NCBI GenBank assembly: GCA_021555105.2
Contig: CP134604.1
Location: 1,550,001 to 1,614,000, forward strand
DNA: 64,000 bases
Direction of reading: 5' to 3'
Source of the DNA: Thalassospiraceae bacterium LMO-JJ14
GTDB lineage: Bacteria > Pseudomonadota > Alphaproteobacteria > Rhodospirillales > Casp-alpha2
The position numbers and the translations under genes were made by a program. Below are positions 6,324 through 45,010 of the stretch, piece after piece (the stretch's first letter is position 1; the number at the start of each line of letters is the position of its first letter). The notes beneath the pieces were generated by a model. It was given only the letters and a program-made list of their open reading frames with translations, ran no database searches and was not told the origin of the DNA.

Positions 6324-7784
6324 TCAGGTGCCTGCCCCCTGTTCATTGACCGGCGGCAGGGTCACCGTTACGCGCAGACCGCCTTGCTCCATGTTTTCAA
6401 GCGTCACGTCCCCGCCGTGGCGGCGGATGATGTCGCGGGCAATCGACAAGCCCAGCCCGCTGCCACCGGTCTCGGTGCTGCGCGAGGTTTCAAGGCGCAC
6501 GAACGGCTCGAAAATGCGCTCCATCTGATCTTCGGGTATGCCCGGGCCATTGTCCTCTATGCGGATGGTCGGTGAACGTCTCTGCAGGTCCAGCGTGACA
6601 TGGACCTTCTGGCCGTACAGCGCGGCATTCTCGATCAGGTTCGAAAGCGCGCGCCTGAGCGCCAGCGGACGGCAGGGATAAACCGGCGAGTTGATGACCG
6701 ACAGGTCGATTTCATGGCCAAGGGTGTCAAGGTCGCCGATCACGGCTTCCAGTAGCTCCGCCAGCTTGCAGGGCCGGGTCGGCTCGTCTGACAATTCCTG
6801 GCGTGCGAACGCCAGCGTTGCCTCGATCATGTCCTGCATGTCGGAAAGGGTGGCGATCATGCGCTCGCTGGCTTCCGTGTCGTCGAGCATCTCGGCGCGC
6901 AGCCGCAAGGCGGTGATGGGTGTGCGCAAATCATGGCTGATGGCCGCAAGCATCCTTGTGCGCTCACGGACGAACGTCTTCAGGCGGTCCTGCATTTCGT
7001 TGAAGGCGCGGATCGTGTCCTTCACATCGTCGGGCCCGTTTTCCTTCAACGGTTCGACGTCTTCGCCGCGGCCGAGTTTTCGCGCCGCTTCCGAAAGCGC
7101 GCCGAGCGGCCGGGTGATACGCCCGAGTGCAATGAATACGATAAAGGTGATGGCACAGGCAGCAATCAGAAACGTGAACCATGCATCGGGACGGATCAGG
7201 CGACGGGGCGGCGGTGTGCTGAGCGCCGCATTCATCCACTGATCGCCGACAAGAGCCACCGAGATAATGGTGTCGCTGCGTTTTACCCTATCCGGCAGAC
7301 GGACGTGATTGAGGGCGTTATTCATGATCATGGACTTCGGGTGCATGCGGTCATGAGCGCTGTCGTGTTCCTGGTGGAAAACGCGGATGCGGTCTTTGTG
7401 CATTCCCTTCAACTCTGCCGCCAGGCTCGACGCCAGATCGCGTGCGTGCCAGCGGTACCCTTCGGTATCGTCCGTGGAAGGCACGGCAACGGCAGACACG
7501 GCGGCCTCCGGGCTGAGCCAGATGGTGAGGCGGCGGTTCGACAAGACGCTGGCGAGCTGATCGCGCTGTACCGGCGGTGTCTCGTCCATCAGTTTGGCAT
7601 ACGGCGCAATGCGTTCGGTGAGGAAGCGGACTTCCGCGCCGCTGTAAAAAGTGCGCGCTTCGCTGCGGACAATAAGGGCGACGATGATCTGTGCCATGAA
7701 CAGCGCGATCAGCACCAGCAGGACGGTTTGTCCCAGCAGGCGCTTCGGCCACAGCCGCTTGAAGAAATTCAAGACCCGTGTCAT
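6324..7784 (-). CDS. Sensor histidine kinase with periplasmic His cluster
   Basis: A 486-residue membrane kinase with TM helices at about 20-40 and 202-221 flanking a periplasmic sensor, then HAMP, HisKA with phospho-acceptor H284 (AAISHDLRTPI) and an intact HATPase domain (N-box NLIENAA, G1 DNGPGIP, G2 GSGLGLSIA). The periplasmic part carries H137, H140, H144 and H148 plus M147 (FHQEHDSAHDRMHPK), a plausible metal-binding cluster. Its ATG overlaps the stop of the response regulator gene by 4 bp (ATGA), so the two are translationally coupled. A Spy-like gene follows. Together these suggest an envelope or metal stress sensor; the metal is inferred. Confidence 0.92.
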   Translation of the reverse strand: MTRVLNFFKRLWPKRLLGQTVLLVLIALFMAQIIVALIVRSEARTFYSGAEVRFLTERIAPYAKLMDETPPVQRDQLASVLSNRRLTIWLSPEAAVSAVAVPSTDDTEGYRWHARDLASSLAAELKGMHKDRIRVFHQEHDSAHDRMHPKSMIMNNALNHVRLPDRVKRSDTIISVALVGDQWMNAALSTPPPRRLIRPDAWFTFLIAACAITFIVFIALGRITRPLGALSEAARKLGRGEDVEPLKENGPDDVKDTIRAFNEMQDRLKTFVRERTRMLAAISHDLRTPITALRLRAEMLDDTEASERMIATLSDMQDMIEATLAFARQELSDEPTRPCKLAELLEAVIGDLDTLGHEIDLSVINSPVYPCRPLALRRALSNLIENAALYGQKVHVTLDLQRRSPTIRIEDNGPGIPEDQMERIFEPFVRLETSRSTETGGSGLGLSIARDIIRRHGGDVTLENMEQGGLRVTVTLPPVNEQGAGT

Positions 7785-8500
7785 GTCCGCGTGACGTCCG
7801 CGGTGAATTTGTAGCCGCCGCCCCAGATGGTCTGGATCAGTTCCGGCTTTTTCGGGTCGGCCTCGATCTTCTTGCGCAGGCGGCTCACCTGATTGTCGAT
7901 GGCGCGGTCGAACAGCGCGGCTTCGCGGCCTGCCGTCAGGTCGAGCAGCTGATCGCGGCTCAGGACCATGCCCGGCCTTTGCAGGAAGATGTTCAGCAAC
8001 CGGAATTCCGCCGTCGAAAGCGGCATCGATACGCCGTCGGCGTCGATCAGTTCGCGCCGCTTGGTGTCCAGGGTCCAGTGATCGAAGGAAAGCCTGTCTG
8101 CGCTCGGTTCGCGATCCGTGCGGGGCAGGGAATTGGTGCGGCGGATCACCGCCTTGATGCGGGCCAGCAGTTCGCGCGGATTGAAGGGCTTGGTGACGTA
8201 ATCGTCGGCGCCGACCTCAAGGCCGATGATGCGGTCGGTATCGTCGGCCATCGCGGTCAGCAGGATCACCGGCAGGTCGGTGTTGTCGCGCAGGTAGCGG
8301 GTCAGTGTCAGTCCGTCCTCGCCCGGCATCATGACATCGAGGACGACCAGGTCCGGCGCGGCCGCCTTGAGGCATTCGCGCAGTTGCGCGCCGCCGCTGG
8401 CGATGCTTGTGCGCATGCCGCTCTTGCCCAGGTAGCGGGCCAGTTGGGTGCGGATTTCCTCGTTGTCGTCAACAATCAGGATGTGCGGCGTCTTGTCCAT
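7781..8500 (-). CDS. OmpR/PhoB-family response regulator
   Basis: A 239-residue regulator with a receiver domain (acidic DD at 11-12, phospho-acceptor D55 in VVLDVMMPG, K in VTKPFNP) and a C-terminal winged helix ending GGGYKF. The start at 8500 (MDKTPHILIV) is preferred over an in-frame GTG 21 bp upstream because receiver domains normally begin a few residues before the first beta strand. It forms an operon with the sensor kinase, ATGA overlap, and the Spy-like gene, and is divergent from the EF-hand gene. CGACAA direct repeats with a 10-bp period lie in the shared promoter region, as expected for an OmpR-type dimer. Confidence 0.93.
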   Translation of the reverse strand: MDKTPHILIVDDNEEIRTQLARYLGKSGMRTSIASGGAQLRECLKAAAPDLVVLDVMMPGEDGLTLTRYLRDNTDLPVILLTAMADDTDRIIGLEVGADDYVTKPFNPRELLARIKAVIRRTNSLPRTDREPSADRLSFDHWTLDTKRRELIDADGVSMPLSTAEFRLLNIFLQRPGMVLSRDQLLDLTAGREAALFDRAIDNQVSRLRKKIEADPKKPELIQTIWGGGYKFTADVTRT

Positions 8501-8576
8501 GCGCCATTGTATAACGTTCACGCAGCCCGCGTCTGTACAGGAAAATTGTATCTGAATGTCACAGACGCCGGCGTTG

Positions 8577-8687: not shown

Positions 8688-9203
8688 ATGAAACACAAAA
8701 CAAAACTTCTCGCCACGCTTGGTGTCGTCGCCGGTCTCGCGGTTGCGGGTTATGCCGTGACAGCACACGCCAACGGCGGTTCGCACCGCTGCGAAGGCGG
8801 GCAGGGCGAACGCCAGCACGGCATGATGGGTGGCGGCAGCCACGGCATGATGGGTGGCGGCATGCGCATGATGCACATGATGGAAACCTACGACACCAAC
8901 AACGACGGTGCGCTGACGGTGGAAGAAGTGACCGCCGAGCGGGCCAAGAAGTTCAAGGCGTTCGACAAGAATGCCGACGGCATGCTCGATCTGAACGAGT
9001 ATCAGGCTTTGTGGATGGACGCCATGCGCGAGCGTATGGTCGACCGGTTCCAGAAGCACGACAACGACGGTGACGGGAAGATCAGCGAGCAGGATTTCTC
9101 CGAGAGATATTCGCGCATGATGACCTGGATGGACCGTAACGAAGACGGCAAAATCGACCGCGAGGACCACATGGGGTCACGCCGTCATCACGGTAACAAC
9201 TGA
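8688..9203 (+). CDS. Exported Met/His-rich EF-hand protein
   Basis: A 171-residue protein with a signal peptide (residues 1-28, cleavage after a TAHA-like site) and four EF-hand loops: 69-80 (DTNNDGALTVEE), 93-104 (DKNADGMLDLNE), 125-136 and 149-160. Loops 1 and 2 end in the canonical Glu, 3 and 4 in Asp. Before them, residues about 44-65 form a Gly/Met/His-rich stretch (repeated HGMMGGG), reminiscent of copper-binding periplasmic segments. It should bind Ca2+ and perhaps Cu/Ag in the periplasm. It is transcribed divergently from the two-component operon, suggesting co-regulation. The hypothetical metal role is inferred from composition. Confidence 0.85.
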   Translation: MKHKTKLLATLGVVAGLAVAGYAVTAHANGGSHRCEGGQGERQHGMMGGGSHGMMGGGMRMMHMMETYDTNNDGALTVEEVTAERAKKFKAFDKNADGMLDLNEYQALWMDAMRERMVDRFQKHDNDGDGKISEQDFSERYSRMMTWMDRNEDGKIDREDHMGSRRHHGNN

Positions 9204-9261: not shown

Positions 9262-9291
9262 AACGGCCAGGCCTGTTAAGGTCTGGCCGTT
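9262..9291. terminator. Strong hairpin between EF-hand gene and kinase fusion gene
   Basis: A 13-bp stem (AACGGCCAGGCCT / AGGTCTGGCCGTT, one G-T wobble) with a GTTA loop, in the convergent gap. It overlaps the 3' end of the minus-strand gene, whose TAA stop is at 9276-9278. It probably ends plus-strand transcription, although the following T-run is weak. Confidence 0.5.
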
Positions 9292-10460
9292 GCGGTTTCG
9301 GGCAGGAAGATGCGGGTGACGAAGCGTCTTGGCCCTTCTTCGGTGCACTCGACCGTGCCGCGGTGCGCCTGAACGATGGCGCGGATCAACGGCAAGCCCT
9401 GCATAAGCCCGTTTTGACCGGGGGAACCGATCGTTCGTTGCGCTTCTGGACGCGCCGTCAGCACCGGCTTCGATGGCGATATAACCTTGAGGGTTATGCC
9501 GGTGTCTTTCTCGAACGCGGTTTCGACATCGATCGTGTGGCCGCGTCCGGTTGACATGATCGTCGCTTCGATCAGCCGCCGGATGCATTGTTTCAACCGG
9601 TCCTGATCTCCGGAAACACGTCCCTTCTGGGAACTCCACTTGCGGCGCAGCATGACACCGCGGCGGTCGGCGGCCTGGGCTGCTTCGCGGCAGGTCGTAT
9701 CGACGATCTCCTCGATGTCGATCTGCATCAACGGGCCAAGCGGAATGTTGACGCCGTATTCGGCAAGTGTGGTGTCGACCAGATTGTTCATGGCGTCGAG
9801 AAGATGCGATGCGGCATGGCGGATATCGCGGGCATATTCGGCATACCCGGCCGGTTGCACCGGGCCGAGCGTTTCATCCGCGATCATTTCCGAAAACCCG
9901 ACAATCGCCGTTAACGGCGTCCGCAACTGATGGCTCAACTGGTTCAGCAGGTCGATCAGCGGTTCCTGGCCCGGCGCGAAATCTTCGCGCGTCTGGAAGC
10001 GGTTTTCACTGCTTGTGAGAGAATCGAACGGGGCGTCGTACCCCTGTCCGAGCCGTTCGCCGCATTCGACGATAAAAAGCTCGACCTCATAGATGACGCT
10101 GTCGGAAATACCGATCCGCCGGCGCCGCGCGTCGCTTCGGTCCTGGACCTTGTGGATCGCCTTGCGCCGTTCCAGCTCGGCGAGCCCGGTAATCGCCGTG
10201 CCCTTGGAAAGACCCGTCGTGATATAGATGTCGGTGACGTTCGGTGTGATGTCCTGCAAATAACACTGTATCAGATAATACAGGATGTCCCAGGTTGAAC
10301 GATTGAACGCACCGGGTTTCTGGTCGATGTCAAGAAGAGTACGCAAGCGCTCCGTAATGTCGCGATGGCGGAACAACTCGTAACGCAGGATGTGGTCGAC
10401 CACCCGTTTGCGTTCGGTTACATCCCTGATTGTATTTGGTTTTTCAGGTCCATCTTGCAT
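9276..10460 (-). CDS. MarR-like winged helix fused to a degenerate histidine kinase
   Basis: A 394-residue cytosolic protein with no TM helix. Residues about 54-118 look like a MarR-type winged helix: a helix-turn-helix around VTDIYITTGLSKGTAITGL, then a basic wing QDRSDARRRR. A HisKA helix pair follows with an intact H-box, H177 in LNQLSHQLRTPLTAIVGF. The ATPase part is eroded: the N-box Asn is missing (CIRRLIEAT), no DxGxG G1 box is present, and only a GL-P-LIRAIVQAHRG remnant of the G2 region remains. It may therefore bind DNA and accept or shuttle phosphate, or dimerise, rather than autophosphorylate. No cognate response regulator is adjacent. Confidence 0.8.
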   Translation of the reverse strand: MQDGPEKPNTIRDVTERKRVVDHILRYELFRHRDITERLRTLLDIDQKPGAFNRSTWDILYYLIQCYLQDITPNVTDIYITTGLSKGTAITGLAELERRKAIHKVQDRSDARRRRIGISDSVIYEVELFIVECGERLGQGYDAPFDSLTSSENRFQTREDFAPGQEPLIDLLNQLSHQLRTPLTAIVGFSEMIADETLGPVQPAGYAEYARDIRHAASHLLDAMNNLVDTTLAEYGVNIPLGPLMQIDIEEIVDTTCREAAQAADRRGVMLRRKWSSQKGRVSGDQDRLKQCIRRLIEATIMSTGRGHTIDVETAFEKDTGITLKVISPSKPVLTARPEAQRTIGSPGQNGLMQGLPLIRAIVQAHRGTVECTEEGPRRFVTRIFLPETATARP

Positions 10461-10554
10461 GCCGGTTCTCTTAATCTCATCTTCCCAGAGAGCTTAAGGG
10501 ATCTTCAACAAGAAATAAATAAGATTAATTCAATGACCTAAAATAGGTTTAATA

Positions 10555-44644: not shown

Positions 44645-45010
44645 ATGGCGAGTAAAATCCTTATCGTTGAAGACAACGATCTAAACATGAAGTTGTTCAA
44701 CGATCTTCTTCAGGCGCACGGCTATGAAACGGTCCAGACAGTTGACGGACGCGATGCCTTGAAGCTTGCACGTGAACATTCGCCGGACTTGATTCTCATG
44801 GATATTCAGTTGCCTGAGATTTCAGGCCTTGAAGTGACCAAGATGCTGAAAGCCGACGATGACCTGAAAAGCATTCCGGTCATTGCCGTGACGGCTTTTG
44901 CCATGAAAGGTGATGAGGAAAAAATTCGCGAAGGTGGTTGCGAAGGCTATATCGCCAAGCCGATATCCGTCCCGCACTTCCTTGAAACGGTCAAAAAGTT
45001 CCTGAGTTGA
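44645..45010 (+). CDS. divK: Single-domain response regulator DivK
   Basis: A 121-residue receiver nearly identical in pattern to Caulobacter Div[15 protein letters not shown], phospho-acceptor D53 in [47 protein letters not shown]. DivK relays the PleC/DivJ signals to DivL-CckA and thereby CtrA activity in the alphaproteobacterial cell cycle. In Caulobacter divK is followed by pleD; here the next gene, rpmG, is on the opposite strand and no pleD is seen. Confidence 0.97.

Follow-up and report, generated by a model that had tools for sequence, protein, structure and literature searches.

The window, the stretch of 64 000 nucleotides that was analysed, belongs to a 3.89 Mb genome assembled as a single contig. 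A gene on its reverse strand (9276–10460) encodes a protein of 394 amino acids, complete from ATG to stop according to the ORF listing, Pfam and the orthologues. The protein, here called the wHTH-pseudokinase, joins an N-terminal winged helix (wHTH) to a HisKA domain and a degenerate ATPase domain. The gene lies 94 bp downstream of a DUF983 gene of the same orientation; DUF599 and mnmA come next on that side, and these neighbours recur in genomes with the fused form. On the opposite flank, within the genus, are an EF-hand gene and an OmpR-type kinase/regulator pair. The initial annotation placed the gene alone between unrelated gene pairs, which is partly right; however, both its position and its DUF983/DUF599/mnmA neighbours are conserved. 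The OmpR-type pair (6324–8521) was considered as a partner and rejected, since the adjacency is restricted to the genus and the kinase is of another type. The EF-hand protein (8688–9203, forward strand), which looks secreted and is conserved in the genus, is encoded between this pair and the wHTH-pseudokinase.

The model of the whole protein (mean pLDDT 76) contains a winged helix, a long HisKA hairpin and a Bergerat-like domain. Because fold comparison of the whole model is dominated by kinases, the winged helix (residues 14–137; 10050–10421, reverse strand) was modelled and searched separately (AlphaFold pLDDT 92.5, pTM 0.86). Its top Foldseek matches in the PDB are MepR, MarR and SlyA, several of them DNA complexes, with E values of 2e-5 to 1e-3; the TM-scores of about 0.5 make the fold class clear and point to no close relative among the solved structures. 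The α1 and α5 extensions of the MarR fold are present, as seen in the model and the structural matches. The recognition helix spans about residues 86–98 and the basic wing residues 107–114 (DRSDARRR), and Leu96, Asp110 and Arg112 are invariant in the orthologue alignment. By sequence, the MarR_2 match is weak (Pfam, E 0.17) and the full MarR Pfam cut-off is missed; one orthologue of the family reaches E 8e-6 for MarR_2.

The dimerization and phosphotransfer helices (HisKA/DHp, residues 167–235; 9756–9962, reverse strand) are of the DivJ/PleC/PdhS/DivL kind. The Pfam HisKA match covers residues 170–230 (E 1e-10; 41.8 bits versus a cut-off of 26.9), the top NCBIfam models are PdhS and DivJ, and the top PDB sequence match is DivL (4q20). 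HATPase_c at residues 284–389 scores under its Pfam cut-off (24.6 versus 26.4 bits). The degenerate ATPase (CA) domain, residues 242–391 (9288–9737, reverse strand), was delimited by alignment to the intact relative G053 and by VIA-align. It superposes on the ThkA catalytic domain with a Z score of 20.1 and an rmsd of 2.9 for 138 aligned residues; the corresponding values for the model and DivL are 18.5 and 8.8 for 209 residues. The Bergerat fold of the CA domain is predicted to be kept, judging from the model. There is no transmembrane helix, the maximum Kyte–Doolittle(19) value being 1.16 compared with 3.18 for the neighbouring membrane kinase.

To describe the kept and lost residues, we compared the wHTH-pseudokinase with G053 and among six orthologues (G000, which is the genome of the window, G001, G002, G006, G007 and G010). 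Where G053 reads SHDLRAPL, NLLSNAVKF, DTGPGIP and GTGLGL, the window protein reads SHQLRTPL, RRLIEATIM, ISPSKPV and NGLMQGL. The N-box Asn is changed to Glu or another residue, DxGxG to SxSxP and GTGLG to GLMQG. All three ATP motifs, N, G1 (DxGxG) and G2 (GxGxG), are lost in 6/6 orthologues and intact in G053 at the same locus, and the ATP lid is likewise gone in all six. The phospho-acceptor His177 (codon 9930–9932, reverse strand) and Thr181 (9918–9920) are invariant across the set. Residue 178 (9927–9929), directly after the His, is Gln in G000, G001 and G002 and Glu in G006, G007 and G010; this position is normally Glu or Asp. In HisKA kinases, kinase activity depends on the acidic residue after the His, which phosphatase activity does not need; for Thr or Asn at His+4 the reverse holds (PMC3510030). 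Thus, Gln178 in half of the orthologues, together with the kept Thr181, indicates that the loss is selective and on the kinase side. In G053, the positions of Thr181 and Thr184 are occupied by Ala and Asn. The wHTH-pseudokinase therefore shares the His-bearing HisKA domain with active HisKA sensor kinases, and lacks their ATP motifs and, with Gln178, their acidic residue. The initial annotation had read a MarR-type winged helix, a canonical H-box His177, a missing N-box Asn and DxGxG and no transmembrane helix from the sequence; structure prediction, the HisKA match, the alignment and the hydropathy values bear out all of these. Its inference that the protein is not a sensor kinase is supported by the lost ATP motifs and by Gln178 beside the kept Thr181, and the protein very probably has no autokinase activity.

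The HisKA surface was compared with that of DivL, in which R553, T557, G561, Y562, L565 and H579 contact DivK (PMC4211667). The equivalent residues by alignment are R180, T184, G188, F189, M192 and Y209, which are invariant in 6/6 orthologues. The same DivL-like surface is common to dozens of kinases in these genomes, so DivK as the partner is a guess. A DivK orthologue is encoded in the window (44645–45010, forward strand), with 76% identity to Caulobacter DivK. Its gene follows that of a Crp-type regulator.

The locus differs between genomes in a graded manner. In two genomes of another family (G025 and G094, family f2) the winged helix stands alone; in G053 it is joined to an intact kinase, and in six genomes (those of the window's genus plus G010) to a His-bearing HisKA domain and a dead ATPase. 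In G022, the protein is reduced to 219 amino acids, comprising the winged helix and a HisKA remnant without the His and without most of the docking residues; about 184 bp separate it from the next gene, hence there is no ATPase. Most other genera of the family do not have the gene, and the DUF983 neighbour gave no tblastn match in G053. The host group of the dead-kinase form consists of uncultured alphaproteobacteria. In the kinase tree, G053 groups with the dead forms against 41 other kinase cores, with long branches and a support of 92/84, which is just under the starred level. Because this close relative at the same locus has an intact kinase, the wHTH-pseudokinase is a decayed wHTH-kinase, not a design that arose de novo. 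We infer the time order of the series, from active kinase to bare remnant. In genus g7 this locus holds a PAS-PAS kinase, which was rejected as the ancestor, as the tree does not join it to the wHTH-pseudokinase group. The wHTH-PAS-kinases L062 and L063 were also rejected as kin: their N-terminal domain is of the same class, but their kinase cores lie elsewhere in the tree.

Selection acts unequally along the protein. Pairwise dN/dS values among G000, G001 and G002, which are rough because synonymous sites are near saturation, are 0.02–0.06 for HisKA, 0.07–0.13 for the winged helix and 0.10–0.19 for the dead ATPase. The dead ATPase is the fastest-changing folded part, with a dN/dS of 0.58 against G010. 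HisKA is the most constrained domain, with 91–94% identity compared with 85% for MnmA; for the pair G000 and G001, the values are 93% for HisKA, 85% for MnmA and 78% for the HisKA domain of the adjacent active membrane kinase. Purifying selection acts on every domain, and the frame is open in every complete copy. The conservation of HisKA and the purifying selection thus speak against both a pseudogene and a simple scaffold.

Two conserved elements lie in the promoter. The sequence TAAGATTAATTCAATGACCTA (10520–10540) has one mismatch to TAGG-N13-CCTA, an inverted repeat found in 6/6 promoters of the genus (exact in G001, G002, G004, G006 and G007, one mismatch in G000) and elsewhere once among 189 loci. 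Adjacent to it, the element TTAAACCTATTT (10541–10552, reverse strand) is common to six orthologous promoters and is the sole match in the window at up to one mismatch. Over the six genomes it has 5 mismatches in total, whereas shuffles gave a mean of 16.5 and a minimum of 15 (0/40), although the relatedness of the genomes inflates such conservation figures. TAGG-N13-CCTA is the natural candidate operator for the wHTH-pseudokinase, but it could be the target of a different regulator. A regulon search with this repeat led to TAGGTCA-N7-TGACCTA, which is also found near amino-acid genes elsewhere and is probably the site of another regulator. This near-perfect palindrome occurs at L190:3014-3034 (G000:C1:3030513-3030533) and in L191, L192, L193, L202 and L203. 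It is fixed at −73 to −80 before an indolepyruvate ferredoxin oxidoreductase-like gene within the genus and is absent before that gene in most other genera. Its half-site resembles the repeat before the wHTH-pseudokinase, and it is the stronger of the two.

We compared the wHTH-pseudokinase with known systems that share its parts. The Caulobacter pseudokinase DivL (PDB 4q20) has the same kind of HisKA domain and likewise no useful ATP site, and its HisKA has been put to a new use, the binding of phosphorylated DivK (DivK~P; PMC4211667). However, in DivL Tyr550 replaces the His and the ATPase domain is more normal, whereas the wHTH-pseudokinase keeps His177, which sets it apart from the DivL class, and lacks the ATP motifs. 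DivL also carries PAS domains and acts on CckA, where our protein has a winged helix. In this respect the two proteins mirror each other, the His being lost in DivL and ATP use in the wHTH-pseudokinase. ChpT, PhyT and Spo0B similarly have a His in a kinase-like helical bundle and have lost ATP use (PMC3433190, PMC5898713), but they have no DNA-binding domain, and PhyT is membrane-bound. RtrC, a stand-alone and proven transcription factor in Caulobacter that is confined for the most part to Caulobacterales and Rhodospirillales (PMC9648850), represents with MarR and MepR the fold class of the winged helix (MepR being the top match); this likeness is one of fold class, and the kinase-derived part is absent from these factors. 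Alphaproteobacterial REC-wHTH response regulators match the same winged-helix profile; in them the winged helix follows the receiver, whereas in the wHTH-pseudokinase it precedes HisKA and there is no receiver. The hybrid two-component systems (HTCS) of Bacteroides, unlike the wHTH-pseudokinase, comprise a membrane-bound active kinase, a receiver and a C-terminal AraC-type domain. What they have in common with it is a DNA-binding domain and a histidine kinase in one chain (PMC11253607). In the literature searched, mostly papers free of subscription, neither a DNA-binding histidine kinase with a dead ATP site nor a MarR-kinase fusion was found described. The initial annotation spoke of a new signalling layout; His-bearing kinases with dead ATP sites (ChpT and PhyT), DivL and the HTCS fusions are known, but the combination of a dead kinase, a retained His and a DNA-binding domain in one soluble protein looks undescribed.

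We favour, with a probability of about 0.6, a regulator that is soluble, dimeric and DNA-binding and that descends from a fusion of winged helix and histidine kinase through loss of ATP use. In its favour are the confidently modelled winged helix with its DNA-bound MarR-family matches, the loss of the ATP motifs beside the invariant His177, Thr181 and docking-equivalent residues, the strong conservation of HisKA and its kinship with DivL, DivJ and PdhS, the DivK orthologue in the window, the intact kinase at the locus in G053, the inverted repeat in the promoters of the genus and the precedent of RtrC. We infer four elements of its function: DNA binding, dimerization, regulator docking and a switch. 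The winged helix would bind DNA, with the inverted repeat upstream of its own gene plausibly among the sites, and DNA binding by the protein is likely. The HisKA four-helix bundle would hold the dimer and dock a response regulator of the DivK/PleD class, a docking that we consider reasonably probable. The phosphorylated regulator would dock and might be dephosphorylated or transfer its phosphoryl group to His177; phosphatase, phospho-acceptor and docking-only modes are about equally likely. Docking would move the two winged helices relative to each other and thereby switch DNA binding, with the dead ATPase domain as a structural or regulatory remnant. The wHTH-pseudokinase thus probably acts as a transcription factor that takes its input from a two-component pathway, not as a kinase that drives one, and 'sensor histidine kinase' annotations of such genes are wrong in kind. 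A more specific version, in which a phosphorylated DivK-like single-domain regulator acts backwards by docking on the protein or phosphorylating His177, is tentative. If true, this step of the information flow, from regulator to former kinase to promoter, would need neither an active kinase nor a DNA-binding receiver protein. The wHTH-pseudokinase makes it possible to ask whether a response regulator can govern DNA binding from a docking site on a dead kinase domain, opposite to the direction given in textbooks, and the graded series at one locus indicates how a histidine kinase can be converted into a transcription factor.

The G022 remnant, which lost the His and the whole ATPase, counts against the favoured reading, since phospho-chemistry is dispensable in that lineage; so do the Ala and Asn of G053 at the positions of Thr181 and Thr184. 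With its missing docking residues and the stand-alone winged helices at the same locus in family f2, the G022 remnant fits a plain one-component transcription factor, in which HisKA is a dimerization scaffold without two-component input and the kinase parts are gradually eroding. If HisKA were just a scaffold, one would not expect His177, Thr181 and the docking-equivalent residues to be invariant, and within the genus HisKA is more conserved than the DNA-binding domain and MnmA, so we regard this explanation as unlikely, if a serious one. The invariant His177 beside an absent ATP site is also the pattern of a phosphotransferase of the ChpT/PhyT/Spo0B kind with an added DNA-binding domain, in which His177 would relay phosphoryl groups between two response regulators, coupled to DNA binding. 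ChpT has a His-bearing bundle and a Bergerat-fold domain unable to bind ATP (PMC3433190), and PhyT relays phosphate through its His despite a degenerated ATPase domain (PMC5898713). Yet such a relay requires the chemistry that G022 has dispensed with, a candidate second regulator is lacking, and the Glu-to-Gln change next to the His is no argument for transfer; we consider it quite improbable.

A kinase still active through a non-canonical nucleotide site would agree with the predicted Bergerat fold and with Glu at position 178 in G006, G007 and G010, but it would have to work without the N-box Asn, the G1 Asp and Gly, the G2 glycines and the ATP lid, all gone in 6/6 orthologues, and in three of them with Gln in place of the acidic residue needed for kinase activity (PMC3510030), which we find very hard to credit. 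A decaying pseudogene would account for the fast change of the ATPase domain (dN/dS 0.10–0.19; 0.58 to G010); it is at odds with the open frame of all complete copies, purifying selection in every domain and the conserved promoter element, and is the least credible of all.

The fusion of this winged helix and HisKA is found in this family only, among sampled genomes from the family (48), order (248) and class (385). A pattern search of genome contigs matched just two orthologues, G001 and G002. The winged-helix profile also matches the C-terminal output domain of alphaproteobacterial receiver proteins (E of about 1e-9 to 1e-17) and the wHTH-PAS-kinases L062 and L063, which have intact ATP motifs; the domain has thus been repeatedly paired with two-component parts. 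Stand-alone winged helices of about 133–153 amino acids also occur in this family. In three loci, the winged helix is followed by PAS domains without a kinase (L060:3976-5724, forward; L061:3936-5678, reverse; L083:4693-5889, forward). In other alphaproteobacteria, ORFs of 328–347 amino acids (L154, L156, L164 and L171) combine the wHTH with an N-terminal receiver-like part without the phosphorylation site; here too, two-component chemistry appears to have been lost beside the same winged helix. Lastly, a protein of 570 amino acids (L166:1778-3490, forward) matches the winged-helix profile at its N-terminus, and its remainder resembles an extracellular solute-binding protein.
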